A stretch of DNA of 64,000 nucleotides from Lycium barbarum (Eukaryota > Streptophyta > Magnoliopsida > Solanales > Solanaceae). The stretch spans positions 55,450,457-55,514,456 of the forward strand of contig NC_083343.1 in NCBI RefSeq assembly GCF_019175385.1, written 5' to 3'. Within the stretch, counting starts at the first letter, position 1. Each line of letters starts with the position of its first letter. Shown here piece by piece: positions 1 through 63,054 of the stretch. The notes under the pieces were generated by a model, which was given only the letters and a program-made list of their open reading frames with translations, made no database searches and had not been told where the DNA came from. Position numbers and translations under genes: made by a program.

Positions 1-879
1 GTACTAATATGTTAAGTTATGAATGATTATGTGACGATATGATTACACCGTGCCTAGATGGCCGGACATGTCACCGCTAATGTGGGCTGCTTATGATTAC
101 ACTGCGCCAAGATGGCCGGACATGTCACCGCTAATGCGGGCTGCTTATGATTACACCGTGCCTAAAGGGCCGGACATGACACCACTAGTGGGCGGCCTAT
201 GATGGTTACCCGGACACGGGTTAACGATGAGGATTATGAGGTGATGATACATGTGATGTGATGACATATTTACCATGACCATATAAATATGCGTTATATG
301 TACGAAATGTATTCACCTATGAAACTCATGCAGGTTATATCTTCCTCTTATGGCTCATGATCTTTCTATTACGCTTATTTCATTCTTGTCTTACATACTC
401 AGTACAATGTTCGTACTGACGTCCGTTTTCTTTGGACGCTGTGTTCATGCCACAGGTAGACAGGGAGGTGAGCTTGATCCAGACTCATAGGAGTTGTTAG
501 CTGATTGAGAGCACTCCATTATTCCGGAGGTGCTTGATCATTCCTTTGTGTATATATATATGCATATTTTGGGCACGACGGGGTCCTATGCAATCTTTAT
601 GTCTAGCACTTCAGTAGAGGCTCGTAGATGCGCAGTGTGGGTTATATGGTCTCACAAGGTCACTACTGTATATATGTATATATGCGTATATTATCATTTT
701 GATAGCCGAGAGGCTTATGTATATAAAAGTATTTATGTTCCCAAATGAAATATGATTTTCTTATGATTTGAGTATGAATTTGATAAAAGAGAGTTAAATG
801 AGTATGATGAGTAATAGAACGAGCGGTGCTCGGTGGTTAGCCCCGGGTACCTGTGGTGGCCCCTCGTCGGGTCGTGACA
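1..879 (+). mobile_element. 3' portion of a Tekay-type LTR, cut by window edge
   Basis: This is the downstream part of an LTR of the family also present at 10686-13084 and 43926-46300. It shows the same blocks in the same order: CCGTGCCTAGATGGCCGG repeats, the CAGTAC/GTACTG plus CGTCC/GGACG hairpin module at 400-438, and the end GGGTCGTGACA at 879. It faces right, while the pol gene directly behind it is on the minus strand, so it is not the 3' LTR of that element but a separate insertion into the integrase gene. The next five bases, GAAAT (880-884), should recur at its unseen left end as the target duplication. Confidence 0.85.
41..200 (+). repeat. Three tandem 52-54 bp units inside the LTR
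   Basis: Units start at 41, 95 and 149, each opening GATTACAC and carrying a GGCCGGACATG core followed by CACC..CTA. The first two are 54 bp, the third about 52 bp with more substitutions. Equivalent GC-rich units lie at the same relative place in the other LTR families of this window. Confidence 0.85.
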
Positions 880-2296
880 GAAATAAGTGCGGGTACTTGG
901 ATTTCATATTTTCTTCCACTTCCCATGTCATTTCTTCTCGGTTATTGTTTCTCCATAAAACCTTAACTGAGGCCACTTCTTTGTTTCTAAGCCTCCATAC
1001 TTGCCTATCTAATATGGCAACGGGTACCTCTTCATAAGTCAAATTTTCCGTCACTTGAACATCATTTAATGGCACGATCCTAGTAGGATCTCCAACACAT
1101 TTACGAAGCATAGAGACATGGAAAACTGGGTGAACTGACTCCAAATCAGTAGGTAAATCTAATTCATAAGCCACTTTGCCTACTTTGCGCACAATCTCAT
1201 AAGGCCCAATGTACCGGGGACTAAGCTTCCCCTTTTTGCCAAATTTCATTACACCCTTTATTGGTGACACTTTTAAGAATACCCAATCTTTCACTTGGAA
1301 CTCTAAGTCCCTTCGATGATTATCCGCATAGGGCTTTTGACGACTTTGGGCTGCTAATAACCGATCTTGTATGAGCTTAACTTTCTCTATGGCTTGCTGG
1401 ACCAAGTTTGGCCCTATCAATTTAGTCTCTCCTACCTTGAACCTCCCAATTGGGGATCTACACTTTCGCCCGTATAAAACCTCATACGGTGCCATTTGGA
1501 TGCTAGAATGATAACTATTATTATAGGCAAACTCAATGAGGGGTAAGTGATCATACCAATTACCTCCAAAATCTATCATACATGCCCGGAACATCTCCTC
1601 AAGAGTCTGAATGGTACGTTCGGCTTGTCTATCAGTCTGCGGGTGAAATGTCGTGCTAAGGTTCACTTGAGTGCCCAAAACCTCTTGGTAGGACTTCCAA
1701 AAATTAGCTGTAAACTGAGTTCCTCTATCAGAGATAATAGATACTGGAACACCATGGATTCGCACTATCTCTTTAACATAAAGCTTTGCATACTTTTCTG
1801 CCACATATGTCGTTCTGACGGGTAAGAAATGAGCTGACTTCATGAGTCTATCCACAATCACCCATATAGAATCATATTTACGTCGAGAATGGGGCAAGCC
1901 TGTAATGAAGTCCATGTTAATTACTTCCCACTTCCAAGTTGGAATTTCTATAGCTTGCATCAATCCGCCCGGCTTTTGGTGCTCGATTTTCACTTGTTGA
2001 CAGTTGGGACATTGAGCTACGAATTTCGCTATATCTTTCTTTATCCCATTCCACCAATATATAGATTTAAGATTATGGTACATTTTCGTTGCTTCGGGGT
2101 GGGCAGAATAACGGGAACAATGGGCTTCTCTCAATATTTGGTGGCGTAACCCTACCACATCAGGGACACATAATCTGCCTCGGCATCGGAGAACTCTGTC
2201 TCCTGCAATCTCAAATGATGACTTCTCCTTCTGAGGGAGTGTATCTCTGTAATGCATTAGCATGGGATCATTGTATTGTCCCTCTTTCACTTCCAC
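794..2296 (-). pseudogene. pol: Integrase with chromodomain (T1 pol, C-terminal part)
   Basis: The enzyme would insert retrotransposon cDNA into chromosomes. A zinc-binding HHCC set is visible (H59, H66, C96, C99 of the 500-residue frame), then a DD35E core: D129 in INMDFITGL, D190 in ISDRGTQF, E226 in QTDRQAERTIQ, with 35 residues between the last two. A GPY/F-like motif (SPRYIGPYEIV) and a chromodomain ending in VKVLWRN..EEMTWEVEENM follow; the chromodomain defines chromoviruses and its form fits Tekay. All three catalytic acids are present. The true protein ends near KYPHLF at 880; the last ~28 residues, to the stop at 794, are read from the inverted LTR inserted there. Upstream it is cut from RNase H by stops near 2300. 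Confidence 0.93.
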
Positions 2297-2302
2297 TACT
2301 AG

Positions 2303-2959
2303 CTACGAGACTGCTGAATTCTGAAGGGTAGTTCCCCTGCTACCTGAGTCCACTACTCGAACTCCTAGGCTAGCTAACTGTTGGAGCTCACGAGCCATTT
2401 CTCTTTTCTCTGGTCGTACATCACACAAACTTTCCATGGATCTACGGCTAAGGGCATCAGCCAGAACATTTGCCTTTCCGGGGTGATATAGGATATCAAC
2501 ATCATAATATTTTAGCAATTCCAACCATCGTCGTTGCCGCAAATTCAAATCCTTTTGCTTGAAGGTATACTAAAGGCTCTTATGATCTGTATAAATATCC
2601 ACCTGGGCACCATATAAATAATGTCTCCACATCTTTAATGCATGAATCACTGCAGCTAACTCTAGATCATGGGTTGGATAATTCTTCTCATGTTTCCATA
2701 ATTGCCTTGAAGCATACGCAATCACCTTACCATGTTGCATCAACACACAGCCTAGCCCAATGCCTGAAGCATCGCAATAAACAACATAACTTTCCAATCC
2801 CTCTGGAAGTGTCAAGACTGAGGCGGAAATTAATCTATCTTTTAGCTGTTGGAAACTACGATCACAAGCATCTGTCCATTGAAACTTAGCTGATTTTTGG
2901 GTCAGCTTTGTTTGTGGTGCAGAAATGGAAGAAAAGCCTTCTACAAATCTCCTGTACAA
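2303..2959 (-). pseudogene. pol: RT connection and RNase H domain (T1 pol)
   Basis: Two same-frame pieces, 2570-2959 and 2303-2548, separated by a stop between 2549 and 2569. The first carries the RT C-terminal part ([11 protein letters not shown]) and RNase H motifs: an acidic [13 protein letters not shown], the ELAAV helix and YTDHKSL. The second holds the RNase H end (RRWLELLKYYDVDILYHPGKANVLADALSRR), typical of Ty3/gypsy. RNase H removes genomic RNA during reverse transcription and leaves the polypurine primer. The frame differs by one from the RT piece just upstream (3497-2964), so a frameshift lies near 2960. Confidence 0.9.
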
Positions 2960-2963
2960 CTTG

Positions 2964-3763
2964 CTAAGCCAGGAAGCTACGGACCTCCGTAGGAGTTGTG
3001 GGCCTTGGCCAAGTCTTCACGGCCTCAATCTTTTGGCTATCTACCCGAATACCATCGGCTGCAACAATGTGCCCCAAAAATGTCACTGAGTTCAACCAAA
3101 ACTCACACTTAGAAAGTTTTGCATACAACTCTCGAGTTTGAAGAACTCTAAGGATGGCACGCAAATGATCCGCATGTTCTCCCTCGGAACTAGAATACAC
3201 CAAGATATCGTCGATGAATACAATCACAAATAGATCTAAGAAAGGCCTGAACACATTGTTCATCAAGTCCATAAATACTGCCGGTGCATTAGTTAGCCCA
3301 AATGACATTACCCGGAACTCAAAATGGCCATATCTTGTTCTGAAGGTTGTCTTAGGGATATCTTTCTCCCTAATTCTCACTTGATGATACCTGGACCTCA
3401 AATCTATCTTGGAAAACCATTTGGCACCTTGTAATTGATCAAACAAGTCATCAATCCTCGGAAGAGGATATTTATTCTTAATCGTCACCTTATTCAATTG
3501 TGATAGTCAATGTACATTCGCAAGGAGCCATCTTTCTTTCGAACAAACAAGACGGGTGCTCCCCACGGGGATGAACTAGGCCTAATAAAGCCTTTCTCAA
3601 GCAAGTCTTTCAATTGCTCCTTCAACTCTTTCAATTCTGTGGGAGTTATTCTATAAGGAGGAACATATATAGGCTTGGAGTCTGGTGACACAAATAGCAA
3701 AATCAATCTCCCGATTGGGAGAAAGGCCTGGAAGCTCTGCCGGGAATACATCTGGAAACTCAT
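2964..3763 (-). pseudogene. pol: Reverse transcriptase domain (T1 pol)
   Basis: The palm domain copies element RNA into DNA from the initiator tRNA primer. Piece 3763-3494 has the N-terminal fingers ([34 protein letters not shown]). Piece 3497-2964 has the palm: first catalytic aspartate D32 in [27 protein letters not shown], and the D96-D97 pair in [10 protein letters not shown]. The usual small residue in SGYHQ is arginine here, which could impair activity even without the frame breaks. The two pieces are in different frames around 3495, and the upstream protease frame shifts near 3670. Domain identity is certain; the gene is broken. Confidence 0.93.
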
Positions 3764-4520
3764 TCGCTACGGGAACTGACTGAAGAGTCGGCGGTTCAGC
3801 TTCTATATCTTGAACCCGAACTAGATGATAAAAGCATCCTTTCGTGATCATTTTCCTTGCCTTTAGATAGGAAATAAACCTACCTTTTGGTGATGCAGTA
3901 TTCCCTTCCCATTCTAAAACTGGATCTCCCAGAAATTGGAAACGAACCATTTTCATTCTACAATCAACATTGGCATAGGAAGAAGCCAACCAATCCATGC
4001 CCATAATAACATCAAAATCTACCATTTTTAGCTCATGCAAGTCAATCATAGTACGGTGATCACAAATCACAACTATGTAGTTTATATATACTCGGCTAGC
4101 TATTACCGATTCATCAACAGGTGTAGACACCTCAAAAGGTTCGATCGACTCCGGTTTGACTATAAACCGACCCGCAATATATGGAGTAACATATGATAAT
4201 GTGGAGCCCGGGTCTATCAAAGCATATACATCATGAGAAAATACCGATAATATACCTGTGACCACATCAGGAGAAGACTCAAGATCTTGGCGTCCAGCTA
4301 AAGCATAAATACGGTGCTGAGGACCGCTAGAACTAGGGACTCTCCATCTGCCTCTACTATGGCCGACTGGCGCATGTGAACCTGGCCCCATAAGGCGTAT
4401 AGATGATGAAGATCCGGCTACCGACCCTGAAGGCTGGGTCCTACCTCTATCACCAACTGAAGGGCAATCACGCATAATATGGCCTGGTCGACCACATGAA
4501 TAGCAAACCTCTGATCCCAA
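3651..4520 (-). pseudogene. Gag zinc knuckle and aspartic protease (T1)
   Basis: The frame opens with the gag nucleocapsid knuckle CYSCGRPGHIMRDC (CX2CX4HX4C, residues about 6-19), then a Ser/Gly/Arg-rich linker ending RIYALAGRQDLESSPDVVTG. The aspartic protease follows with active-site motif YALIDPGSTLSYVTP, the plant Tekay variant of D-T/S-G, and a conserved FDVIMGMDWL block. The protease would cut the Gag-Pol polyprotein inside the particle and works as a dimer. The tail ([18 protein letters not shown]) leads toward RT but leaves frame near 3670. The methionine at 4520 is only a convenient frame start, since translation would have come through gag. Confidence 0.92.
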
Positions 4521-4715
4521 TCGGCATTGACCCCAATGTAACTTCCTACACTAGGAACATCGTGGCATGGGTGGCCTCGCCTGACCCGAATCACCTCTGA
4601 ACTGAGTCCCCGAAAAACTATGACTCGGCCCGGAACGAGTAGATCTGTCAAACCTCTAGCCTAAAGACCGTGGGGGTGCACTAGTCATAAAATGGCCTGA
4701 ATGCCTAGAAAACTG

Positions 4716-5633
4716 TTATTTGTGCCCGCCTCTAAACTCACTCATCGGACCCGAAGATCTATCCCTCTTGCTATGTCCCCTATCATGCTCACGCTCACTT
4801 CTTTGTTGTTGTAGGCTTTCTTCTAAATTCTGAGCATGGGCCTGAATGCGTGAAATATCCATATTGCCCTGAAAGGACGCAGTCAAGCACCTATCCATCA
4901 ACTGTAGCCCTAGGCCTTTCACAAATCGGTGCACTCGGTCACCCATATCCGCTACCATGGCTGAAGCATACCTAGCCAAATAATTGAAGCAGAGATTATA
5001 CTCTAAAGCACTCATGCTTCCTTGCCTAAAATTCAAGAACTTATCTGCTCTAGCTCGCAGAACTTCTGGAGGCAAATAATGTCGGAGAAAAGCATCTACA
5101 AATTTTTGCCATACCGGGGGAGGCGCATTGGCTCCCCGTGAAGCAATCCAAACCGTGTACCAATGGATCGCGACATCCCTCAATCTATATGATGCTAACT
5201 CCACCGATTCAGAGTCCGAAACATGTATCAAATGAAGCGTCCTCAACATTCCATCAATAAAATTCTGAGAGTCTTCATCCGGCTTTGATTCAATGAATTT
5301 CGGAGGGTTCAAGCTAATGAAATCACGGGCCCTTGCACTAACAGCCCTATCACCTTGCCCTGTACTTTGCCACTGAGTCTGGCCAGCAACCAATTGAGTA
5401 AGAAAATGAGTGGCCTCTTTTACGTCTTGGCCTGAAGCATCCGGTGGAGGAGCCGGAGGTGCTGAGGCTCCCTCACGCTCCTCAGAAACAGGCACTGACT
5501 GGGAGGACTGAGATTGAGCCGCATTCTAGGACTGATTTTCTTCTATAACTATTGGCGGTGCTCTTTCAGCCCGCTTCTCTGCCACTTTCTTGCCCTTTTG
5601 GGCTGCCGTAGCCTTTCTCTTTACAGGTATTTC
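4716..5633 (-). pseudogene. gag: Gag capsid region (T1)
   Basis: Gag forms the particle that packages element RNA. The open part, 5495 to 4716 (259 residues), holds the retrotransposon gag domain: ARDFISLNPPKFIESKPDED, ESVELASYRLRDVAIHWY, PPPVWQKFVDAFLRHYLPPEV and the arginine-rich tail. Homology continues upstream to about 5633 (KATAAQKGKKVA-like), but the expected start codon has become ATA and a TAG lies near 5523-5525. A TAA at about 4713 separates it from the zinc knuckle. Positions match gag of D (46508) and F (55382). The minus-strand sequence just upstream, TATTTCAG, resembles a 3' splice site, as in the other elements. Confidence 0.9.
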
Positions 5634-5741
5634 TGAAATACATAACACATGGTTAAGGAAAAAGAAGTTCTTATGTCATAGCTCTATTGCACGATCTTAT
5701 GAAGAAAAAGGTCAATCATTCCCAAAAATGCCCGCAGCCTC

Positions 5742-5779
5742 TTGTTTATAAGTGTGGTGCGCAACACACCCATAACCAA
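5742..5779 (-). other. Leader hairpin with palindromic loop (possible dimerisation site), T1
   Basis: On the minus strand, arms TTGGTTAT and ATAAACAA enclose an inner GTGTG/CACAC stem and the 8-base loop TTGCGCAC, which contains the self-complementary hexamer TGCGCA. It lies about 40 bases past the PBS. Five other elements have the same hairpin with different palindromic loops. Confidence 0.7.
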
Positions 5780-5820
5780 GACTCTACTGGACACGGTTCG
5801 TAGACACACCCTAGGATAGA

Positions 5821-13084: not shown

Positions 13085-13089
13085 CATAT

Positions 13090-19132: not shown

Positions 19133-19323
19133 TATTTATCAACCTACGATCACCTGCAGGAAGAGGGTCAGAAACATTTTCCCCAAATACCGACACTTCT
19201 GCTCTTCTGGAGCCTCGCTGTAGATACAGCAATTCGTAGGGGAGAATCATCCTAATCATATAGCTTTATCGCACGATCTAAGAATCCAAAGAAGGGTAAC
19301 ATCCTAAATGCCCTGTAGCTTCC

Positions 19324-19359
19324 TGTTTATAGGTGTGGTGCACAACACATCGATAAACA
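19324..19359 (-). other. Leader hairpin with palindromic loop, A
   Basis: Minus-strand arms TGTTTAT and ATAAACA, an inner GTGTG/CACAC stem and loop TTGTGCAC containing the palindrome GTGCAC. Confidence 0.72.
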
Positions 19360-19400
19360 AGACTCTACTAGACATGGCCTGTAGACATACCGAGGACTAA

Positions 19401-19414: not shown

Positions 19415-19418
19415 CTTT

Positions 19419-29977: not shown

Positions 29978-30019
29978 GTTGTCCTAGGGGTTGTCTGCAA
30001 AGTCGTGTCCAGCAGAGTG

Positions 30020-30057
30020 CTGTTTATGGGTGTGAAGCCGGCCACATTTATAAACAG
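30020..30057 (+). other. Leader hairpin with palindromic loop, B
   Basis: Arms CTGTTTAT and ATAAACAG, inner TGTG/CACA stem, loop AAGCCGGC with palindrome GCCGGC. The loop is unlike that of the other elements in sequence but still self-complementary. Confidence 0.75.
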
Positions 30058-30239
30058 GAGGCTGCAGGGCATCTAGGGATTGTTGACCTTCTTTCTGTCT
30101 CAGATCGTGTGATAGAGCCAAGTCATAGGTAATGAGATTCCTTATATGTAAGCCTTGCATACGACGGAAGAAGTTGAGTGATGATATGGAAGGTCATAAA
30201 GGTAAGTTGGAACATATTTGTTTTGTTACCTGAAATTGG

Positions 30240-38711: not shown

Positions 38712-38752
38712 TTCATCCTCAGAGTGTCTACAGACTGTGTCTAGTAGAGTCT

Positions 38753-38788
38753 TGTTTATCGGTGTGTTGTGCACCACATCTATAAACA
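38753..38788 (+). other. Leader hairpin with palindromic loop, C
   Basis: Arms TGTTTAT/ATAAACA, inner GTGTG/CACAT with a wobble, loop TTGTGCAC (palindrome GTGCAC). Confidence 0.72.
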
Positions 38789-38875
38789 GGAAGCTACAGG
38801 ACATTTAGGATGTTACCTTCCTTTCATAACTAAGATCGTGCGATAGAGCCCAGTCATAGGAAATGAAATTCCTTA

Positions 38876-38894
38876 TACTAACCCTTGATTTCAG
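38876..38894 (+). other. Branch point and 3' splice-site-like sequence, C
   Basis: TACTAAC (38876-38882) is followed 12 bases later by a TTTCAG end at 38894. This is a textbook branch-acceptor pair at the place where gag begins in D, F and T1. Confidence 0.5.
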
Positions 38895-46318: not shown

Positions 46319-46360
46319 GTTCGCCCTAGGAAGTGTCTACGAGCCGTGTCTAGTAGAGTC

Positions 46361-46397
46361 TTGATTATGGTGTGTTGCGCGCCACGCTAATAAACAA
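46361..46397 (+). other. Leader hairpin with palindromic loop, D
   Basis: Arms TTGATTAT/ATAAACAA (one mismatch), inner GTGTG/CACGC, loop TTGCGCGC with palindrome GCGCGC. Confidence 0.72.
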
Positions 46398-46507
46398 GAG
46401 GCTACAGGGCATTTAGGAAAATGACCATCTTTCTTCTCATGAGATCGTGCGATAGAGCCATGTCTAGGATTATATCATTCCTAAAGGTGCGTTATGGTTT
46501 CAGAAAA

Positions 46508-48561
46508 ATGCCGCCGAAAGGGAAAGCTACAGCTGCCCAGAAAGGCAAAGCTACGACAAAGAGGCAGGCGGAAAGAGAGCCTCCGGCAAATGTAGAGGAA
46601 AGTGAATCGCAAAGTGAGGCCCCGCCCAATATAGAAGAGCAGGGAGGTGCCTCAGCTCCGATTCCTCCACCGGGTGCTTTGGGTCAACAAGTGTCCGAGG
46701 CCATACATTTATTGACACAGTTGGATGCCGCTCAGGCACAACGACAGAATGCGGGCCCAAGTGATCGTTCAGCTAGTACAAGAGCCCGTGATTTCCTTAC
46801 TCTAAATCCTCCAGAATTTTTCGGGTCGAAGACGGATGAGGACCCACAAGGTTTTATCGATGAAATGCTGAGGACGTTAACACTTATGCATGCTTCTGAG
46901 ACTGAATCTGTAGAGTTGGCCTAATATAGACTTCGCGACGTGGCGATGCTATGGTATAAGAATCGGGTAATAACAAGAGGGGAGAATGCCCCACCTCCCG
47001 TGTGGCAAGAGTTTGTAGATGCCTTTATTCGTCACTATTTGCCACCTGAAGTCCGCCGAGCTCGAGCGTACAGGTTCTTGAATTTGAAACAAGGAAGCAT
47101 GAGTGCCCGAGAGTATAGTATGCAATTCAACTCATTGGCCCGGTATGCTCCGACGATGGTGGCTGACATGGGGGACCGAGTCTATAGATTTGTGAGTGGT
47201 TTAGGACCACACTTGTTCAGAGATTGCCTGACATCCTCTTTGCAAGACGGGATGGATATTTCCCGGATACAGGCCCATGCTCAGAACCTCGAGGAACGAC
47301 AACGACAGCAGAGTAGTGATCGTGAGGGTGACAGAAGACAAGGTAAGAGGGCTAGATCTATGGGGGAGAGCAGTGAGTACCGAGGTTGAACAAGACAGAC
47401 GCATTCCAGGCAATCAGGTCAGTCAGCGACCAGTGCACCTCCCAGATTCTCGGATAGGAGATTCGACCGTTCTTTTCAGTCAGGTCAGGGGCAGAGTTCG
47501 AGGGCCTCAGATTCGCAGGCTAGGGGAGACTTTAGCCAGAGGAGACCTCCAGTACCGCGGTGTAGCCAGTGTGGCAAATTACATTCCGGACAGTGTCGTC
47601 AGGGTTCGGATGCTTGTTATGCTTGCGGGCAGGTTGGTCATATGATGAGAGATTGCCCTTCAGCGAGAGATAGAGCTGGGACTCAGCCTACAGGTTCAGC
47701 AGCGGGTTCTTCTTCAGCATGCCCGACAGCACAGACTCCTCAGACTACAGCAGGTAGGGGTAGAGGTAGAGGGGGAGCATCCACTTCAGGTGCTGTTCAG
47801 CCCCGTGTGTATGCTTTAGCTGGGTGACAGGATCTTGAGTCTTCCCCAGATGTTGTCACAGGTACCTTGACTATATTTTTCCGTGACGTATATGCTCTGA
47901 TTGATCCAGGTTCTACCTTCTCATATATTACTCCGTATATTGCGGATTGTGTTGGGGTAAGACCTGAGCCAATTAAACCCTTCGAGGTATTCACTCCGAT
48001 TGGTGATCCTGTAATAGCGAGGCAAGTATATCAGAACTGGGTAGTCATTATAGGTGATCGTCAGACAAGGGCTGATCTAATTGAACTTGAGATGATAGAT
48101 TTTGACGTAATTATGGGTATGGACTGGTTGGAATCATGCTATGCTAATGTTTGTTGCCGGACAAAGGTAGTTCGATTCCAATTTCCAGGAGAGCCCATAC
48201 TCGAGTGGAAGGGTAATACAGTTTCCCCAAAGGGTAGGTTTATTTCCTACCTTAAGGCGAGAAAGATGATAGCCAAGGGTTATATTTGTCATCTGGTTCG
48301 GGTTCATGACACGGAAGCGGAAGTGCCAACTTTCCAGTCTGTCCCGGTAGTGAATGAATTCCTAGATGTGTTTCCCGACGAGTTACCAGGCCTTCCTCTA
48401 GAAAGGGAGATTGATTTCGCCATTGATTTATTACCAAACACCGAGCCTATTTCTATTCCTCCGTATCGAATGGCTCCAGCATAATTGAAAGAGCTAAAAG
48501 CACAGCTAAAAGATTTACTTGAGAAGGGGTTTATAAGGCCTAGTTCCTCGCCATGGGGAGC
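46508..48561 (+). pseudogene. gag: Gag-protease frame of D with four in-frame stops
   Basis: One frame runs from ATG 46508 (MPPKGKATAAQKG) to the truncation, with no frameshift, broken only by stops at 46922-46924, 47387-47389, 47825-47827 and 48482-48484. Gag domain: ARDFLTLNPPEFFGSKTDED, ESVELA, PPPVWQEFVDAFIRHYLPPEV. A CCHC knuckle CYACGQVGHMMRDC lies near 47614-47655, after a second Cys pair (CSQCGKLHSGQC). The protease has YALIDPGSTFSYITP and FDVIMGMDWL. RT begins with [19 protein letters not shown] and is cut. Each stop is explained by one base change from the T1 or F residue at that place: Ser TCA to TAA, two CGA-like codons to TGA, Glu GAA to TAA. MPPK start is preceded by GGTTTCAG. 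Confidence 0.93.
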
Positions 48562-51638: not shown

Positions 51639-52118
51639 TGTTATATCCCGTGTTTTCGCATATTCGGAAAATTTGGAGTAATTGTGACTTGTAAAGAATA
51701 AGGCCAGATTTTGATTTCATCGGACCTATATGTTGTTGTGTATGAAAAGTGTTGACGCGGAGACATCGGGGAAGGCCAAGGGCAAAATTGGAATTTCGGA
51801 AATTATTTTCGGGAATTACAAAACGAGAATTCTAACAAGATGGGCTCAAAAAAAAATAATAGAAAATTGAGGCCCAAATTTATAGGGGTGGCCGGCCATG
51901 AAACTAGCCCAAGCCCATGTTATTAATTTGTTATGTGACTAAGTCATGTGACAAATTAATATAAAAGGAGATAATTTTCAAGAAAATTCAAGAACAATCA
52001 TAAAAATTGAAGAACACCACAAAAAGAGAGGGCATTCGGCCCTAGAGAAAGAGGAAAGAAAAAAAAATTCCTAGCCTTTGATTTCATTCCAAAAATCTTG
52101 TCTTTCTTGAATTATTAA
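51639..52118 (+). mobile_element. LTR G, first piece (interrupted by F)
   Basis: It starts TGTTATATCCCGTGTTTTCG and is related to the LTR of F (TGTTATGTCCCGTATTTTCG). TATA box TATAAAAGG at 51960-51968. It is cut at ATTAA (52114-52118), duplicated at 61481-61485, and resumes at 61486. Confidence 0.88.
51960..51968 (+). promoter_or_regulatory. TATA box, LTR G
   Basis: TATAAAAGG, about 320 bases into the LTR. Confidence 0.6.
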
Positions 52119-55100
52119 TGTTATGTCCCGTATTTTCGTATAACGAGAAATCAAGAAAATAAATAAGACTTGTGTGTGTAGAGGAAATATTTTGATTTTG
52201 GTGAGTATGACTATGTTGGTGATGGAATTATTAATGTCAAGACCTCGGGGAAGGCCGAGGGTAAATTTGGAATTTCGGAAATTAGTTTCGGGAATTACAA
52301 AACGGGACATTTTATGAATTGGGCCAAGAAAATTTGAACAAAAATGGAGGCCCAAAAATAGGTGAAGTGGCCGGCCAAGTGAGGCCCAAGCCCACTTTTA
52401 AAGAGTCATGTGCTAAGCACATGACTTCTATTTGGATAAATATCATGCTAGCACTTGGTAATTATCAAGAATTTGATCATAAATTCAAGAACACAAAAAA
52501 GAGGGGTTTCGGCCTAGAGAGAAAGAAAAGAAAGAAAAAAAATTCCAAGCTTGATTGTTGATCCAAAAATCTCAAGTTTTACATAGTTGTGAAGTACTCA
52601 AGACGCTCTCCGACGTGATACAAGTAGTTTGGAGAAAGAGCGACATTTGCGACAAGTCGGAAATTCAAGAAAAAGGTAAGATTTTTATGTTTTAATGTTA
52701 TGAAATGGATATATGTGTGTTAGTGATTGGATTAGTGTGAAGATTTTGGGATGAGGATGTGTTTGTGCATGGTGTGTGTGTGTAAAAAAGGGTGTGTTGG
52801 CCGTGAGATCCATGTGGTGCTACCCATAAGAATTTTATCTTGTTTAATTTGAATAATGTGTTGTTGTGATCATTATGTCGTAAAGGATCGATTAAAGAAT
52901 TGAGTTGGTGTTAGAAAATAATTTCGGACGTTATCGGAAAGTGTATACTTTTGGTATATTTGTGAATATCATAGTATATTTATGATACTAAAGACCTTAA
53001 TTAAGATTTATGGTTGATGATAACGAATTTGGAATGAAACGACGTAAGTTAGAACGTTCGTCGTAACTTTTGGTGTTTTGAATGAAAATTGGAGAGTAGT
53101 GAACTTTGGGGATGTATGTATGTGATTTGGAACTTGTATGTAGTGTGTTTGAGTAATTGGGAATGAGTGAATGAATACACTAATGGGGGAATAGATTTGG
53201 ACTTTTGAAGTTGAATCAAGAATTGCCAACTTATGTATTAAAGTGAAATTTTGAAGTTAATGTAGTGTAATTGTGGTTTGTATGGCTTAATGACGTTTGG
53301 GTTGTTGTTGTTGTTGTATTCTGAGCCGAGCTAAGTCTCGGGGGTGTTATAATTATAGGGGAAGTGCTGCCGAAATTTCGGTAGCCAAGTTTAGCCCCAA
53401 AGATGAATATGTTAATTCTCATGAATAGTAACTGGTAAAGGTGACCATTTGCAGTTTCTGGACGAAACGGGAATTGCGATTTGAGGAGCGTAAGGCGCCA
53501 GCCAGGTATGTAAAGCCTACCTCTCATTCTTTTGGCATGTCCTAGACCCACTAGGTAAATTTCGGAATCTCGGGAATAACCCTGCTCTTGGAAATCGAAG
53601 TTCAAGTTCGAGCACTATTCACTCAGCGCGATTGAACCCTTTTTGTCACATTTAGTGGAAAGAATGTTCGTACTTCCATAACTTGTACTGTTGTGTCCGA
53701 AACTCTTCGAAACTGTTGTAGATGGCTCTATGGAGCCGAAAGTCTGTGATTTGTGTCCGCCGCCTCAATTTGACTCGAGGTGGGCCCGCGAGCCCCGAGG
53801 CTCCCCTTATTCGGTTTGTTTAATTCGTTTGTGTCCGTTATGATCCGCAACCGTCTGTTTATGACCCAAAGATGTATTTGAAGCTTCCTACGCCTTTAAT
53901 GTACGTTCTGTACTTCGAACGATGTGAGATTTTCGGAAAATGGCGTATGAACAGTTTTTCTTGAGAATTTGGCCGTTTGGCACTTCGTAACTTACATACG
54001 CAAACTTTGACCAGTCCGATTCCCACTCCGAGCTTTCTGGCGTCAGTATATTCTTATACGTACTATATGTTGAGTCCGACAAGTTATTTTTGATATGCAT
54101 ATGGTTTCTGCACTACTCTGTTCGTGCTGTCTGCTATGACTTCGTTCGTCGGTACCCGGGCCGACTTTGTGATCGTGCGCGCTATTATATATTCGGGAGT
54201 TATGATGTGTTACGGTTTCCGAGGCCTCGCCATAGGGCCGGTTACCGCTTATGGAGTTATGATGTGATATGGCATTTGATATGTTCTTATGATACGATGT
54301 GTGTGTGATATGATGTGTCTGGAGACTGTACGGAGATTTGAAAACTTCTGGAGTTATGATGTGTTGTGGCACCAGCGTCGGGGGGTGACCACGTCCCTAA
54401 ACCCTATACATGATTTTATTTGCATTTGTACGTTCGCCTCCCGCACAGGTTTGCTTTGTTTGTGATGTTGGTGTGTTTGCTCTTTCTGACTCCACCTGTG
54501 TTTGTGATTTCTGTACCTTCTGCTTTACATACTCAGTACTTCTCCCGTACTGACCCCCGTTTCTTCGGGGGCTGTGTTTCATGCCCGCAGGTACAGAAGC
54601 TCGTTTGGGTGGTTCTCCAGTTTAGGCTACTCATTCTGCTGTGTTGGAAAGCTCCCCTTGATCCGGAGCCTACTTTTGGTACATATCTTTTGTTGTGTCT
54701 GTATTCTGTACATTTGGATGAGTGGGTACGGCGGGGCCCTGTCCCGTCCTATGTTCTTATGTTCTGTTTTGTCTAGAGGCCTGTAGTCAGATTTGTGGGT
54801 CGTGGGTCCGGTGTGTTTGCATGTGAGTCTGTTTTACGATCTTAAGTGGCCCGTACGCTGCTATGGCCAAGTCGGCCTCTGAATTTGTATGTGTGTGTAT
54901 GCATTTGGGGGCGATGTGCATTCCGCCACCCTTCTGATGTGTGTGTGTGAAATTTGGCGATGTATATTCCGCCTCCTTTCTGATTTGTGATTTGTCTGAT
55001 CTGTACGGGCGACTGCTTAGGATAAGTGTTCGGTAGTTGTTTGATTGCGATGTTGAGTTCGAATAACGTACGTTGAGTTTGGTCGAGTCTGATTACGATG

Positions 55101-55171
55101 ATCTGGGTGTGAGTTCGTTTGGGGTGTCCCTGAAGGGCACCAGTCGCGGCCCACGGGGCTGGGTCGTGACA
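52119..55171 (+). mobile_element. 5' LTR of F (3053 bp)
   Basis: It starts TGTTATGTCCCG and ends GGGTCGTGACA. Donor-like AAG|GTAAG at 52676, CAGGTATGTAAAGC near 53503, repeated ATGATGTG-type units about 54190-54370, CAGTAC module with CCCCC/GGGGG hairpin 54534-54571. No protein-coding region is supported; the 124-residue antisense frame at 53231-53605 is only duplicated with the LTR. Confidence 0.95.
52674..52681 (+). other. 5' splice-site-like sequence in the F LTR
   Basis: AAG|GTAAG with the junction at 52675/52676, about 557 bases into the LTR. Equivalent sites occur in T1, B, D, G-type and solo LTRs. Confidence 0.45.
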
Positions 55172-55175
55172 AAAG

Positions 55176-55189
55176 TGGTATCAGAGCGG
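55176..55189 (+). other. Primer binding site (tRNA-iMet), F
   Basis: TGGTATCAGAGCGG after the four bases AAAG. Confidence 0.95.
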
Positions 55190-55230
55190 TTTGTCCTCGG
55201 AATGTCTACAGGCCGTGTCTAGTAGAGTCT

Positions 55231-55266
55231 TGTTTATCGATGTGTTGTGCACCACATCTATAAACA
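55231..55266 (+). other. Leader hairpin with palindromic loop, F
   Basis: Arms TGTTTAT/ATAAACA, inner GATGTG/CACATC (perfect), loop TTGTGCAC with palindrome GTGCAC. This is the cleanest copy: 13 pairs with one mismatch between the two stem segments. Confidence 0.78.
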
Positions 55267-55381
55267 GGGAGCTACAGGACATCTAGGATGTTGTGTTGCC
55301 CTTTCTTTGGAATCTTAGATCGTGCGATAGAGCTGTGTTATTAGGGTCATTTTGATCTGACCCGTTGTTGTGTTTGCAGCG

Positions 55382-56857
55382 ATGCCTCCGAAGAAGGCAA
55401 CGGCGGCCCAGAAGGGAAAGGCGAAGGTGGGAGAGACCAGTCAGGCACAACAGGCTACTCCGGCTCGTGTTTATGATTTGCCTGAGGTTACACCTCATTC
55501 TGAGGGGTCTGCTACACCCCCATTAGCACAGCCTGGAGCGGGACCTTCAGCAGCTCCAGAGGTCCGTGTACTCGCTCCTGAGACTCCAGCTTCTCAGCCA
55601 GGGGCGGAGGATAGGACCCTGAGGGAGGCTGTACAGTTGTTGACCACGATTGTAGCCGGACAGGCTCGCAGGCGCGGGCGGAGGGACGATGATGATGAGG
55701 ACAGGCGGGACAGCCTGAGAGTTCGGGAGTTCTTGTTATGCGGCCCTCCAGAGTTTTTCGGGTCTAAGCCCGACGAGGACCCCCATGACTTCATTCGGGG
55801 GATGCGGCGTGCATTAGACTTGGTCAGGGCGTCAGAGACCGAGTCGGTTGAGCTAGCTTCGCATAGGCTTCGGGATGTTGCCGCGCATTGGTATGAGACT
55901 TGGGAGCTATCCCGGGGTGAGGGTGCTCCTCCAGCCATGTGGGATCAGTTTGTGACTGCTTTCACCCGCCACTTCCTTCCCCCAGAGTTACGACGGGAGC
56001 GAGCTGATCGGTTTTTGCATCTGCAGCAGAGGGGTCGGAGCGTCCGTGAATATAATTTAGAGTTTGATTCCCTGGCCCGGTATGCCCCTGCCGTGGTGGC
56101 AGATATGACAGATCGGATGCATAGATATGTTATGGGGCTGGATCGTTACTTGATTGACGGGTGTATGGCGGTGTCATTGCAGACAGATATGGACATTGCC
56201 CGTCTACAGGCCTACGCCCAGGGGATGGAGAACCGGCACCGAGCAGATCGGCCCAGCAGAGAGTATGATGGGAGACGGCCCAAGAGGGCCAGATCAGCGG
56301 GGCATTTTGGAGATTCTCGGGGCGGGCAGCCTCAGTATCAGTCCAGTGGGTATTTTCCTCCGTCAGGCCGGGACACACAGTCTGCTAGTAAGGGATTTGA
56401 TGGCGCAGGACCGTCCAGGGCAGACCAGAGTTCCAGAGCCCCAGGTCCTCAGGCGAGCAGGGGTCCCAGTCAGATTAGGCCACCTATGCCCCCGTGTTCA
56501 TATTGTGGAAGATCGTACCCAGGTGAGTGCTTCAGGGTCACAGGGGCCTGTTTTGCTTGTGGCCGCCAGGGCCATATCATGCGGGATTGTCCGTGGGCAG
56601 GCGGTTCCGGCAGCGCAGCACCGCCGATGAGATCCGTTGCTGGTTCGTCATCTACCCCTTCGGCCACGCGCTCTACGGGGCGAGGTATGCCAGCACCAGC
56701 GGGCCGCGGTAGAGGCCGTGGTGGGGCTTCAGATTCTAGCGGTCCCTCGAACCGCATCTACGCTTTGACTGGTCGTCGGGACCCAGAGGCACCCCCAGAC
56801 ACAGACCCAGGTATGTTACTACTAACCCTTCTGTTTAATGAATATGTGCAGTGGTAG
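55382..56857 (+). CDS. gag: Intact Gag protein of F
   Basis: This 491-residue frame is the only intact retroelement gene here. I start it at ATG 55382 (MPPKKATAAQKGKAK) because D opens with MPPKGKATAAQKG; an in-frame ATG 12 bases upstream is also open. Order: basic start, a Pro/Ala-rich linker, the retrotransposon gag domain at about residues 115-290 (LLCGPPEFFGSKPDED, ESVELASHRLRDVAAHWYETW, FVTAFTRHFLPPELRRERADRF), an arginine-rich stretch, then Cys motifs CSYCGRSYPGEC and knuckle CFACGRQGHIMRDC at residues 390-403. It forms the particle and binds RNA. The C-terminus follows RIYALTGRRDPEA, exactly where protease begins in T1 and D, then ends after 20-odd unrelated residues. It is GC-rich compared with the LTRs. 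A TTTGCAG acceptor-like sequence ends at 55379. Confidence 0.95.
   Translation: MPPKKATAAQKGKAKVGETSQAQQATPARVYDLPEVTPHSEGSATPPLAQPGAGPSAAPEVRVLAPETPASQPGAEDRTLREAVQLLTTIVAGQARRRGRRDDDDEDRRDSLRVREFLLCGPPEFFGSKPDEDPHDFIRGMRRALDLVRASETESVELASHRLRDVAAHWYETWELSRGEGAPPAMWDQFVTAFTRHFLPPELRRERADRFLHLQQRGRSVREYNLEFDSLARYAPAVVADMTDRMHRYVMGLDRYLIDGCMAVSLQTDMDIARLQAYAQGMENRHRADRPSREYDGRRPKRARSAGHFGDSRGGQPQYQSSGYFPPSGRDTQSASKGFDGAGPSRADQSSRAPGPQASRGPSQIRPPMPPCSYCGRSYPGECFRVTGACFACGRQGHIMRDCPWAGGSGSAAPPMRSVAGSSSTPSATRSTGRGMPAPAGRGRGRGGASDSSGPSNRIYALTGRRDPEAPPDTDPGMLLLTLLFNEYVQW
56811..56851 (+). other. Compact donor-branch-acceptor set at the gag/protease boundary, F
   Basis: CAG|GTATGT (56808-56816), TACTAAC (56820-56826) and TGTGCAG (to 56851) lie within 41 bases, at the point where the protease was lost. 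It is too short for a usual plant intron, but a donor here could join a later acceptor. Confidence 0.35.
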
Positions 56858-57125
56858 GTTTGTACCTCAGTATTATGCGATATTCTTTTGTGTGTGTCAG
56901 TAAAGGTAGGGTAAGAATCCGAATTAATGAAAACATCCGAGGCAGTTATCTGTGCATGTGGGAGGAAAATATATGGGATTTGGAAGGTTAGAACGATAGA
57001 CCACACAACCAGAAAAGCAAACGACCTCTTTGGGCCAGAGTGGGACCCGCTACGAAAAATTTCCGAAAAATTTGCTAAGACCCCGTTTGGCCTAAAATTT
57101 CGTGACAAAGGTCGTGCGAGGCAAT
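56858..57125 (+). other. F internal spacer after gag
   Basis: No retroelement protein was recognised. The last ~140 bases (GGACCCGCTACGAAAAATTT, GACAAAGGTCGTGCGAGG in outline) match the sequence flanking the 5S-like module of A, so the shared block between A and F is longer than the 5S part. Confidence 0.65.
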
Positions 57126-57226
57126 TGGCGAAATTATATCAGCCCTAACGCGTCAAAATGTGTAACAGTTTCAGGGTTAAGCGTGCTCAAGCCAGAGCAA
57201 TTCTGGGATGGGTGACCCCCTGGGAA
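57126..57226 (+). other. 5S rRNA-derived module in F
   Basis: GGGTTAAGCGTGCT (box A) and GATGGGTGACCCCCTGGGAA (box C) are kept; the 5' half (GAAATTATATCAGCCC) follows the A copy. It lies 270 bases past the gag stop, in sense. Confidence 0.82.
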
Positions 57227-57654
57227 ATAACGCAACATTTTGCACAAGTGTAAGTATGATTAAGGTAAATGAAAACTTGGGGTAACCAAAGGCAAATAGG
57301 ATGTGTGTGAAGTAATTAGTGCCCTTTTGAGAGTCGCGCGAAACGAGGCGGACCGAATGGGCAAAAGGAAAGGGTATAACGCCTCTTGGGAAATTGAACG
57401 AATTTGAATAACAGCCAGAGATGTTCGTCAGTAAGGTATGAGTAAACGTGTGTGTGTGTATATGTATGTGTATGTGTGTGTATGATTCTCATTTGGTGCC
57501 TATGAGGGCTAAGAGCCGAGCCCCGGAGACAAATGTTGGGATAAATAAAAGATAAGCAGTGTGAGTAATTGGAATTTTTGAAGGAGTCGATACGTAAGAC
57601 GCAAGGTAAATTGTGTGACGACTGGACGAGTAAGTTTGCAAATAAAGGGAAATT

Positions 57655-58100
57655 CTCATGAATTATTGGAACCGTTTGTGCGTTTGATTCTGAATCCGTT
57701 TCTGTCTGGCACACCTCTGTATGTCTGACTCTGGATATAAATCCGTCTGATATACTTCTGTGCGTTTGATTTTGACCGCGTGTGTGTTCGATGCACTTCG
57801 GTTTGACTGGTCACGACTTTGTATGAAACAACCCTGTATATTTGATTCCGATTTTGGATCTGTCCGATATGAGTCCGTACGTCTGACTTCGACTGTGAAT
57901 CTGTTTGGTATACCTTCGTGTGTTTAATTCTGCTTACGAATTCGTCTGATACTCCTTTGTACGTCTGACTCCGATCTCAGATGTGTCTGATATGCTTCCG
58001 TACCTTCGATGTTGACTACGAATCCGTCCGCCATCGTTGAGTATGTCTGCTTCCGATTATGAATCCGTTCGGTTTTAGTTCTGAGTCTGTTGGGCATGAA
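57655..58100 (+). repeat. Degenerate tandem array of about 45-bp units in F
   Basis: Units follow TCTGATATACTTCTGTACG then TCTGACTCCGATTACGAATC and repeat roughly every 45 bases. It is the same array as A 16505-17180, also between the 5S-like module and the PPT. Confidence 0.8.
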
Positions 58101-58391
58101 GTGTCTGATATGAAGTAAAGTGAGATTACGACGATGTGGTAAGGAAACTCAGGAGTGTGAAAAGAAGATGATATTGACGATGATATCTGGAACGCGTCCG
58201 TCCCTTACAAGAATAGAATGCAGAGTTCGGTGATTACGTAGAGTATGAGAAAATGTATTATGAAGGTATTTGAGTCAGTAATGTGAAAAATCTACCCTAG
58301 TATGGGTAAAGAAGACATGTCGGAGAAATCAATAAAGGACAACTATCAAGAGAACCCTCCCGGAGTAGTACGACACCCATGAGCTCGATTC

Positions 58392-58427
58392 AACATTCGA
58401 GGACGAATGTTCTTAAGGGGGGGAGAA
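58392..58427 (+). promoter_or_regulatory. Pre-PPT hairpin and polypurine tract of F
   Basis: Perfect AACATTC-GAGGAC-GAATGTT (58392-58411), then AAGGGGGGGAGAA ending at 58427. Confidence 0.88.
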
Positions 58428-61400
58428 TGTTATGTCCCGTATTTTCGTATAACGAGAAATCAAGAAAATAAATAAGACTTGTGTGTGTAGAGGAAATATT
58501 TTGATTTTGGTGAGTATGACTATGTTGGTGATGGAATTATTAATGTCAAGACCTCGGGGAAGGCCGAGGGTAAATTTGGAATTTTGGAAATTAGTTTCGG
58601 GAATTACAAAACGGGACATTTTATGAATTGGGCCAAGAAAATTTGAACAAAAATGGAGGCCCAAAAATAGGTGAAGTGGCCGGCCAAGTGAGGCCCAAGC
58701 CCACTTTTAAAGAGTCATGTGCTAAGCACATGACTTCTATTTGGATAAATATCATGCTAGCACTTGGTAATTATCAAGAATTTGATCATAAATTCAAGAA
58801 CACAAAAAAGAGGGGTTTCGGCCTAGAGAGAAAGAAAAGAAAGAAAAAAATTTCCAAGCTTGATTGTTGATCCAAAAATCTCAAGTTTTACATAGTTGTG
58901 AAGTACTCAAGACGCTCTCCGACGTGATACAAGTAGTTTGGAGAAAGAGCGACATTTGCGACAAGTCGGAAATTCAAGAAAAAGGTAAGATTTTTATGTT
59001 TTAATGTTATGAAATGGATATATGTGTGTTAGTGATTGGATTAGTGTGAATATTTTGGGATGAGGATGTGTTTGTGCATGGTGTGTGTGTGTAAAAAAGG
59101 GTGTGTTGGCCGTGAGATCCATGTGGTGCTACCCATAAGAATTTTATCTTGTTTAATTTGAATAATGTGTTGTTGTGATCATTATGTCGTAAAGGATCGA
59201 TTAAAGAATTGAGTTGGTGTTAGAAAATAATTTCGGACGTTATCGGAAAGTGTATACTTTTGGTATATTTGTGAATATCATAGTATATTGATGATACTAA
59301 AGACCTTAATTAAGATTTATGGTTGATGATAACGAATTTGGAATGAAACGACGTAAGTTAGAACGTTCGTCGTAACTTTTGGTGTTTTGAATGAAAATTG
59401 GAGAGTAGTGAACTTTGGGGATGTATGTATGTGATTTGGAACTTGTATGTAGTGTGTTTGAGTAATTGGGAATGAGTGAATGAATACACTAATGGGGGAA
59501 TAGATTTGGACTTTTGAAGTTGAATCAAGAATTGCCAACTTATGTATTAAAGTGAAATTTTGAAGTTAATGTAGTGTAATTGTGGTTTGTATGGCTTAAT
59601 GACGTTTGGGTTGTTGTTGTTGTTGTATTCTGAGCCGAGCTAAGTCTCGGGGGTGTTATAATTATAGGGGAAGTGCTGCCGAAATTTCGGTAGCCAGGTT
59701 TAGCCCCAAAGATGAATATGTTAATTCTCATGAATAGTAACTGGTAAAGGTGACCATTTGCAGTTTCTGGACGAAACGGGAATTGCGATTTGAGGAGCGT
59801 AAGGCGCCAGCCAGGTATGTAAAGCCTACCTCTCATTCTTTTGGCATGTCCTAGACCCACTAGGTAAATTTCGGAATCTCGGGAATAACCCTGCTCTTGG
59901 AAATCGAAGTTCAAGTTCGAGCACTATTCACTCAGCGCGATTGAACCCTTTTTGTCACATTTAGTGGAAAGAATGTTCGTACTTCCATAACTTGTACTGT
60001 TGTGTCCGAAACTCTTCGAAACTGTTGTAGATGGCTCTATGGAGCCGAAAGTCTGTGATTTGTGTCCGCCGCCTCAATTTGACTCGAGGTGGGCCCGCGA
60101 GCCCCGAGGCTCCCCTTATTCGGTTTGTTTAATTCGTTTGTGTCCGTTATGATCCGCAACCGTCTGTTTATGACCCAAAGATGTATTTGAAGCTTCCTAC
60201 GCCTTTAATGTACGTTCTGTACTTCGAACGATGTGAGATTTTCGGAAAATGGCGTATGAACAGTTTTTCTTGAGAATTTGGCCGTTTGGCACTTCGTAAC
60301 TTACATACGCAAACTTTGACCAGTCCGATTCCCACTCCGAGCTTTCTGGCGTCAGTATATTCTTATACGTACTATATGTTGAGTCCGACAAGTTATTTTT
60401 GATATGCATATGGTTTCTGCACTACTCTGTTCGTGCTGTCTGCTATGACTTCGTTCGTCGGTACCCGGGCCGACTTTGTGATCGTGCGCGCTATTATATA
60501 TTCGGGAGTTATGATGTGTTACGGTTTCCGAGGCCTCGCCATAGGGCCGGTTACCGCTTATGGAGTTATGATGTGATATGGCATTTGATATGTTCTTATG
60601 ATACGATGTGTGTGTGATATGATGTGTCTGGAGACTGTACGGAGATTTGAAAACTTCTGGAGTTATGATGTGTCGTGGCACCAGCGTCGGGGGGTGACCA
60701 CGTCCCTAAACCCTATACATGATTTGATTTGCATTTGTACGTTCGCCTCCCGCACAGGTTTGCTTTGTTTGTGATGTTGGTGTGTTTGCTCTTTCTGACT
60801 CCAGCTGTGTTTGTGATTTCTGTACCTTCTGCTTTACATACTCAGTACTTCTCCCGTACTGACCCCCGTTTCTTCGGGGGCTGTGTTTCATGCCCGCAGG
60901 TACAGAAGCTCGTTTGGGTGGTTCTCCAGTTTAGGCTACTCATTCTGCTGTGTTGGAAAGCTCCCCTTGATCCGGAGCCTACTTTTGGTACATATCTTTT
61001 GTTGTGTCTGTATTCTGTACATTTGGATGAGTGGGTACGGCGGGGCCCTGTCCCGTCCTATGTTCTTATGTTCTGTTTTGTCTAGAGGCCTGTAGTCAGA
61101 TTTGTGGGTCGTGGGTCCGGTGTGTTTGCATGTGAGTCTGTTTTACGATCTTAAGTGGCCCGTACGCTGCTATGGCCAAGTCGGCCTCTGAATTTGTATG
61201 TGTGTGTATGCATTTGGGGGCGATGTGCATTCCGCCACCCTTCTGATGTGTGTGTGTGAAATTTGGCGATGTATATTCCGCCTCCTTTCTGATTTGTGAT
61301 TTGTCTGATCTGTACGGGCGACTGCTTAGGATAAGTGTTCGGTAGTTGTTTGATTGCGATGTTGAGTTCGAATAACGTACGTTGAGTTTGGTCGAGTCTG

Positions 61401-61480
61401 ATTACGATGATCTGGGTGTGAGTTCGTTTGGGGTGTCCCTGAAGGGCACCAGTCGCGGCCCACGGGGCTGGGTCGTGACA
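58428..61480 (+). mobile_element. 3' LTR of F (3053 bp)
   Basis: It is the same length as the 5' copy with about eight substitutions. CAGTAC module at 60843-60880. Confidence 0.95.
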
Positions 61481-63054
61481 ATTAACAAGCTCAATACGCT
61501 CTTCGACGTGGTATAATTAGTTTAGCGAAAGAACCACGTTTTCGGGAAAGTTGGAATGTGAAGGGAAGGTATGAATTCTATGTTTTATGTTATGCAATAA
61601 GTATATATGTTATAATGATTAGAAATTGATGAGAATTGTGGAGTTGTGATATGTGTGTGAAGCCGTGTGTGTGTGTAGGGTGGTGTATGGCCGTGTGCCA
61701 TGGTGTTGGTAGAAAGCGGTGAGTTAAATTTTATTTAGCTCGTTAATTGCGTCGTTGTGACCATTGTGACACAAATGAAGGTTTAATGACTTGAATTAGC
61801 CTTGAATTTTCTTGTAGGTAATTATGAGAAATTATGTAAATTTTGTAAGATTTTTGTATAAGTATGGAAGTAAGATTCAAATGTGAATTTTTGTTGTTGT
61901 TAAAGAGTTAGGAAGGAAAACAATGTGAGTTGGAAGTTTCGTTACGTTTGTAGAAACATCGGATGGAATATGAAATTAGCGGGAATACTTGAATTCATGA
62001 ATATTGTTTGGAATGCTATTGAATGTATTTGGATGATCTTGAACTAGCTAATGAATATGGAAAATGTTGATGTTAGTTGGATAATGGAAAGTGGGATGGA
62101 AGTTGTAAACTATATAGAAAAGTAGACTATTGAGGATATAATGCATTTTTGTGATGATTGTGACATTGTTGATGTTATTGGGTTGTTGTTGCTGCTATTT
62201 GAGCCGAGATGATTCTCGGGGGTGCTATATTTACAGGGGAGGTGCTGCCGAAATTTTGGTAGACAACTATAACTTTAAGTTGAATCCTTAGAATCCATAA
62301 CTTACAATTGGTAACTTTGACCATTTGTAGATTCCGGGCGAAACGGGATTTGAGTTTAAGCGAGCGAAAGACGCACGTAAGGTATGTAAAGCTAACTCAT
62401 TCCTTCTTTTGGCATGTCCTAAGTATACTAGGTCGATACTTGAGCCTCGGGGACAATTCCGTTCATGGAAATTCGAATTTGAATTTGAGTACTATTCATT
62501 CAATCTAATTGAATTAGAAAACCTCACATTTTGTTGGAAAATGATCGAACGTCCGAAACTTTGGTAAATGTCATAGAATAGCTTCGAAACTTCCATTGAT
62601 GATTCCATAAATCCTAATACTTGTGATTCAGGCCCGCCCCCTCGACATGACCCGAGGTGGGCCCACTAATCCCGAGACTCCTTTGTTTGTTCTAATAGGC
62701 GTATTTTTGTATAGTGTCGGAAAAAGATTATTGTTATGACTTTGGCTATCATAGAATAATGTCTTGACTGTCCCTGACATTCTAAATTACATTTCGAACT
62801 ATAAATGTAACTTTGAAAGTAATTTCGTGAAATAAATCCTGTATTGACCAATTGTTCGAACTAGTTTGACTAATGGGTTGATATATGAGTATATCAAGTT
62901 TTATAACTATTTCGATTTATAAATTGTATTAGTCGCTCATGACTCTGCTCGTGCCCCTTTATTACGATATCGTTCACCGGTTCCCGGGCCGGTTATTGAT
63001 CACGCGCACTATGACAATTCGACCGTATGCCCTTTTTTTTTTACATGAGTATCC

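Follow-up and report, generated by a model that had tools for sequence, protein, structure and literature searches.

A conserved hairpin of the sense RNA is present in the leaders of six LTR retrotransposons (A, B, C, D, F, and T1) that lie in the window, i.e., the whole 64-kb stretch of DNA that was analyzed. The hairpin itself is real. Its 8-nt apical loop is UUGUGCAC in A, C, and F, UUGCGCGC in D, UUGCGCAC in T1, and AAGCCGGC in B. We consider it probable that genomic RNAs in this group of plant Ty3/gypsy LTR retrotransposons use the hairpin as their dimer initiation site.

The Elements and Their Leader Hairpin

The PBS TGGTATCAGAGC, which we take to be complementary to the initiator tRNA (tRNA-iMet), occurs in six leaders of the 64-kb window, with an exact match in five and one mismatch in C. 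The LTRs, the PBS of F, and the coding regions of F and T1 are as follows.

52117..55172 (5') and 58426-61481 (3'), plus strand: LTRs of F, 3,056 bp, 99.74% identical
55176..55187, plus strand: PBS of F, an exact match to TGGTATCAGAGC
55382..56857, plus strand: gag of F, 491 aa, frame open, with a Retrotrans_gag domain and one zinc knuckle (Pfam)
13089-16291 and 19418-22616, minus strand: LTRs of A, 99.2% identical
26861-29960 and 33029-36137: LTRs of B, 96.2% identical
794..5525, minus strand: gag, protease, RT, and integrase segments of T1, split among separate open frames

For C, there are LTR parts of 689 bp, with an identity of 95.2%. Of the features expected of a Ty3/gypsy chromovirus of the Tekay lineage, the Ty3 order (gag, PR, RT, INT), together with a tRNA-iMet PBS, was found only in T1, where the frames are broken; a candidate chromodomain after its integrase scored 22.2 bits against Pfam Chromo, under the cut-off of 25.1. 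The RT of T1 matches RVT_1 proteins and, among the best 120 of at least 7,997 matches, the named ones were mostly from plants (Gossypium, Tanacetum, Mikania, Cucumis, and others), with two bacterial names. The similarity of F to T1 ends at the start of the protease, and no RT or integrase was found in F. Gag and protease were the sole coding pieces found in D, and comparison of A, B, and C with the protein pieces of T1 and F yielded nothing at E 1e-3. The LTR identities of A (99.2%) and F (99.74%) mark both as recent insertions, so leaders carrying this type of hairpin worked recently.

Several other features of these elements were observed. F is a very young insertion that combines its nearly identical LTRs with an open gag without RT or integrase, and the element (52117-61481) is flanked by an apparent 5-bp target repeat, ATTAA. 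Beyond the LTR bounds of B, an integrase/chromodomain remnant lies on the minus strand at 25965-26499, in two pieces that are 46% and 41% identical to those of T1. Just 5' of the gag ATG, both F (55370-55384) and D (46495-46512) have a stretch ending in CAG that somewhat resembles a 3' splice site, so that the leader might be spliced.

All of the loops and inner stems were found at the positions given for them in the initial annotation. The inner 36-38 bases that it had delimited are correct, but the full hairpin is larger, spanning 67 nt in D and T1 and 68 nt in the other four, and starting at +40 to +42 when the first base of the PBS is +1. A covariance model built from the six hairpins recovered all six, plus six antisense shadows (best E 6.8e-11); in the search of the window nothing else scored better than E 0.09. 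The individual hairpins are given below, with the z score of the fold.

55215..55282, plus strand: full hairpin of F, 68 nt; z -5.26; matched by the model; 26/26 pairs present in the 210-nt leader
19308..19375, minus strand: full hairpin of A; z -4.26; matched by the model
38737..38804, plus strand: full hairpin of C; z -5.10; outermost arm absent from the fold of the longer leader
46346..46412, plus strand: full hairpin of D; z -3.83; outermost arm absent from the fold of the longer leader
5728..5794, minus strand: full hairpin of T1; z -4.66; matched by the model
30005..30072, plus strand: full hairpin of B; z -5.56; matched by the model

The plan of the hairpin, from the outside in, is a six-pair outer arm, one mismatch (a bulge in T1), four pairs, a 2x2 purine internal loop with AG opposite AG or GG, and then 15-16 pairs, with small interruptions that vary by element, leading to the 8-nt loop. 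When the hairpin was cut out, none of 200 shuffles gave a fold as stable for any of the six elements. When 210 nt of leader were folded to minimum energy, every pair of the hairpin was retained in four of the six (F, A, T1, and B); C retained 20 of 26 pairs and D 19 of 25, with loss of the outer six-pair arm that left the inner hairpin and loop unaffected. The open frames running through the hairpin differ between the elements.

The base changes within the stem indicate the molecule on which the constraint acts. After one gap had been introduced to realign T1, 152 of the 156 stem cells were paired (128 Watson-Crick and 24 G-U), and the remainder comprised one A-C and three other combinations; G-U was seen in nine pair columns and A-C in one. 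Selection on the DNA would be expected to make A-C as frequent as G-U, and selection on an antisense RNA to make A-C the commoner. With 24 G-U pairs against a single A-C, the constraint is therefore on the sense RNA rather than on DNA or antisense RNA. In the alignment of six sequences before the T1 gap was introduced, both-sided changes occurred in two of 26 pairs, a number reached by 129 of 500 shuffles; each of five covariation measures was reached by 80-193 of the 500, i.e., the values lie within the shuffles.

Different Palindromes at One Loop Position

The loops are located as follows.

55245..55252, plus strand: apical loop of F, TTGTGCAC, with the palindrome GTGCAC at 55247-55252
19345-19338, minus strand: loop of A, TTGTGCAC
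38767-38774, plus strand: loop of C, TTGTGCAC
46375-46382, plus strand: loop of D, TTGCGCGC
5764-5757, minus strand: loop of T1, TTGCGCAC, with the palindrome TGCGCA one base out of register
30035-30042, plus strand: loop of B, AAGCCGGC

A six-base self-complementary stretch is present in all six apical loops in some register, and in five of the six in one register. The hexamers in that register are GTGCAC (A, C, and F), GCGCGC (D), and GCCGGC (B), which are palindromes, and GCGCAC (T1), which is not. The earlier claim that the hexamer is always self-complementary thus holds in register for five elements with three different hexamers, but for T1 only if a slip of one base is allowed. In the 227-column alignment of the leaders, the loop was the only position at which two or more different palindromes occupied one aligned hexamer; at one other position CCTAGG was found, palindromic in three of six.

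The six loops do not represent six independent cases, one allele being common to A, C, and F, and in our judgement there are about four independent loop states. GCGCGC, GCGCAC, and GTGCAC form a chain of two CpG-type transitions with T1 as the intermediate, and the difference between the loops of A/C/F and D could arise by CpG decay in the absence of selection. The strong change is that in B, where the central GC has been turned into CG with the palindrome kept. The bases preceding the palindrome are UU in five of six and AA in B, and no unpaired base follows it; the purines that flank the palindrome in HIV-1, a feature reported for that virus rather than for every such site, are thus seen only in B, on the 5' side.

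We simulated the evolution of the loop along the leader tree from a palindromic ancestor. The statistic was picked after the loops had been seen, and the P values, which refer to six leaders in one window, are to be taken as guides. Because the first null ignored transition bias, CpG decay, and trimming of the tree, the nulls were rerun with each of these; the trimmed tree, from PBS to hairpin, leaves out the part past a recombination break. The null for three alleles rose from about 2e-4 to at most 2.7e-3 in consequence. The combination of at least five of six palindromes in register with at least three alleles had P values of 0 to 2.4e-4 with equal rates, 1.4e-4 to 7.2e-4 once transition bias was included, 0 to 2.7e-3 when CpG decay was simulated, and 1.5e-4 to 2.2e-3 with the PBS-to-hairpin tree. 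From a random, non-palindromic root, five of six in register and three alleles were reached with P of 0 to 5e-6. With the palindromic root, six palindromes in six, whatever the register, and four or more loops had P of 0 to 3.5e-3 over all nulls. When the alleles were disregarded, P for at least five of six in register rose to as much as 0.19 (equal rates, slowest rate tried), 0.077 (transition bias), 0.051 (CpG decay), and 0.082 (trimmed tree). Five palindromes in six by descent alone are not rare unless differing alleles are required, so that the statistical weight rests on the palindromes being different.

Candidate Partners for the Loop

Calculated without any bonus for kissing, the predicted loop-loop energies for self-pairing were -7.9 (A/C/F), -10.9 (D), -9.7 (T1), and -12.1 kcal/mol (B). 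The cross energies were -7.1 for A/C/F with D, -7.8 for A/C/F with T1, and -9.0 kcal/mol for D with T1; the loop of B reached -2.2 to -3.0 kcal/mol with any other loop, and is predicted to pair well with itself alone. As had been suggested before, A, C, and F should be able to pair with one another, having the same loop and a predicted energy of -7.9 kcal/mol. Predicted base pairing widens this set, the loops of D and T1, which have gag and pol genes or remains of them, being compatible with it. Each of the four loops ranked in the top 1.7-2.6% for self-pairing among 8-mers matched in G+C, and among three partners compared it was self-pairing alone that stood out for all four alleles. The complementarity preserved at loop positions 4-7 and 5-6, which for steric reasons cannot pair in cis, suggests that the pairing is in trans. 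The predicted homodimer was better than two separate hairpins by 11-16 kcal/mol.

Another candidate partner is a second conserved block in the leader. It was detected in a scan allowing up to three mismatches, for which shuffles expect 0.13, and has zero or one mismatch in all six leaders.

55317..55333, plus strand: second block of F, AGATCGTGCGATAGAGC
19263-19279, minus strand: second block of A
38833-38849: second block of C
46442-46458: second block of D
5681-5697, minus strand: second block of T1
30102-30118: second block of B

The form AGATCGTGYRATARAGC of this block is kept in all six elements, and the AUCGUGCGAU within it is self-complementary if the central G-U pairs are counted. The block looks like a shortened copy of the LTR end plus PBS.

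Four other explanations have been weighed against a dimer initiation site. A pseudoknot, in which the loop would pair in cis with the second block, is favored in that five of the six elements have the block region as the best other partner for the loop in the leader; pairing with their own blocks is also equalled by only 2.5% (D), 1.8% (T1), and 11% (A/C/F) of 8-mers of equal GC. However, the loop of B reaches just -1.9 kcal/mol with its block, which 78% of equal-GC 8-mers match, and self-pairing is stronger in all six elements, that of B (-12.1) being the strongest of all. We rejected the pseudoknot, which fails in B, and consider it very unlikely. Even less probable is that the loop binds the D arm of tRNA-iMet, the primer, and so aids its placement. 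Six pairs are possible between five of the six loops and GCGCAG, presumably the relevant D-arm stretch of plant tRNA-iMet, but 19-40% of equal-GC 8-mers reach the same energies and B pairs elsewhere; this partner was rejected, the energies being ordinary for all four loops. An equally slight chance attaches to a palindrome that acts as DNA, i.e., as the binding site of a dimeric protein or as a cruciform. The loop is indeed palindromic as DNA too, but sites of this kind are expected to keep their letters rather than symmetry alone, and the excess of G-U over A-C (24 to 1), which indicates sense RNA, led us to reject it.

The remaining explanation, which we hold to be unlikely but well ahead of these three, is that the stem is a packaging or reverse-transcription element for Gag/NC or RT, and that the palindromes go back to a single palindromic ancestor and were altered by CpG decay, dimerization not being selected for. 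Conservation is strong in both the stem and its flanks, the fold is accounted for by the stem alone, and the changes from GCGCGC to GCGCAC to GTGCAC are CpG-type transitions throughout. At least five of six palindromes in register also arise in 0.5-2.6% of null runs with a GCGCGC root and an 8-fold CpG rate, in 8.2% if the root is GTGCAC, and, in the equal-rate runs, in as many as 19% with the slowest rate tried. Against this, the GCCGGC of B requires a double transversion that keeps the palindrome, and the null falls to 2.7e-3 or less if three alleles are demanded. The kissing-loop dimer site proposed in the initial annotation is qualified by the CpG transitions, by the register of T1, by the frequency with which descent alone keeps five palindromes in six, and by stem covariation that lies within the shuffles, but it remains the best fit to the sequence and beats two rival partners.

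If the hairpin is a dimer initiation site, two genomic RNAs would meet through six loop-loop base pairs, forming a kissing complex that Gag/NC would then convert to an extended duplex; the dimer would be packaged and subsequently reverse transcribed. A, B, C, and F, for which neither RT nor integrase was detected, would retain the hairpin for the Gag machinery of a helper, which would need to recognize hairpin, PBS, and PPT.

Exchange between Families and Comparison with Known Systems

The leader of C (38698-38900) is a mosaic, resembling A and F from the PBS through the hairpin and B past the second block. In the comparison of F with B, C was F-like at 34 of 39 informative sites up to alignment column ~154-163 and at four of 29 thereafter, where it was B-like (0/20,000 permutations); when A was substituted for F the counts were 32 of 38 and then two of 26 (0/20,000). 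Of nine triplets tried, three gave p < 0.05. The break point lies within or just past the second conserved block. This mosaic shows that the families have exchanged sequence in the past, which co-packaging would permit; one cause would be template switching between co-packaged RNA genomes and another conversion at the DNA level.

The loop might further serve as a compatibility code, in which elements with matching palindromes form mixed dimers, use a common helper, and recombine, whereas B dimerizes with itself only. The grouping would comprise A, C, and F, which match, with D and T1 joined by wobble or shifted pairing. We regard such a code as rather doubtful, and the mosaic in C speaks against strict isolation of B, unless the present loop of B arose later. 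Were it true, a loop of six bases, evolving from palindrome to palindrome, would sort parasite and helper families and steer their recombination.

Searches for related leaders were negative. The leader pattern had no matches in viral contigs or genome contigs, and the PBS-plus-leader pattern none in viral contigs. The AGATCGTGYRATARAGC pattern matched 13 viral loci, ATAAACANGRNGCTRCNGG matched 36, and a looser PBS-plus-leader pattern matched three bacterial loci; these 52 loci were taken as chance, the hairpin model giving E 0.13 once in 16 and nothing at E 0.1 in 36. An integrase-based search for loci yielded two stretches that fitted the pattern, neither of which was confirmed. The leader of F had no blastn match among plasmids and phages, no Rfam family reached its gathering score, and the open leader frames of B and F, used as protein queries, produced no candidates. 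A leader string was found in one publication, which is unrelated by its title.

In the main text of a 2025 review of plant LTR retrotransposons, dimers, palindromes, hairpins, and stem-loops are absent, and "kissing" appears once, for the transport element MTE (MusD) (PMC12786077); terms of that kind are likewise absent from a survey of pepper LTR elements (PMC7076952). No palindromic dimer site in plant Ty3/gypsy elements was found in open-access titles and abstract openings among the matches listed. The hairpin would belong to an established class of devices that seems not to have been reported for plant Ty3/gypsy elements so far. It is common to families whose LTR bodies are largely unalike, and the natural loop variants provide ready matched and mismatched pairs, suited to tests of dimerization, co-packaging, and recombination between families.

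The alleles of the HIV-1 SL1 loop are GCGCGC and GUGCAC, which equal those of D and of A/C/F. As in SL1, a palindromic hexamer loop caps an interrupted stem within the 5' leader; unlike that of SL1, the 8-nt loop lacks a 3' unpaired base and mostly lacks flanking purines, and we claim no homology. Retroviral dimer sites have palindromic loops (PMC516450; PMC12789967), and purines are reported to flank the palindrome of the HIV-1 site (PMC516450). Rat VL30 RNA, from a retrotransposon, is packaged by a helper retrovirus, and its dimerization/packaging signal, as quoted, contains AAGCCGGCC (PMC4859993). This string is the entire loop of B plus one base (B 30035-30043); VL30 is mammalian, and the match is probably due to chance or convergence.

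Among retrotransposons, kissing loops have been modelled for Ty1 (PMC5454406). In barley, the particles of BARE1 take up BARE2 RNA, for which conserved signals for dimerization and packaging are mentioned (PMC3735527). Here too a plant parasite element would use the particles of a relative, although BARE1 and BARE2 belong to Ty1/copia, unlike the Ty3/gypsy elements of the window (PMC3735527). A close parallel is yeast Ty3, whose dimer site, PAL6 (CUGCAG), occupies the apical portion of a hairpin, is required in vitro for dimerization, and is backed by deletion and SHAPE data (PMC11381356). The palindrome of Ty3 is at nt 391-396, in the GAG ORF according to its authors (PMC11381356), whereas that of the present elements lies in the leader, about 70 bases past the start of the PBS. 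Unlike Ty3, the hairpin here is long, interrupted, and common to several families, and is known from its sequence and predicted fold. What Ty3 shares with the present elements, besides being of the Ty3/gypsy type, is a GC-rich, six-base palindrome in the apical portion of a hairpin that lies close to the 5' end of its genomic RNA (PMC11381356).
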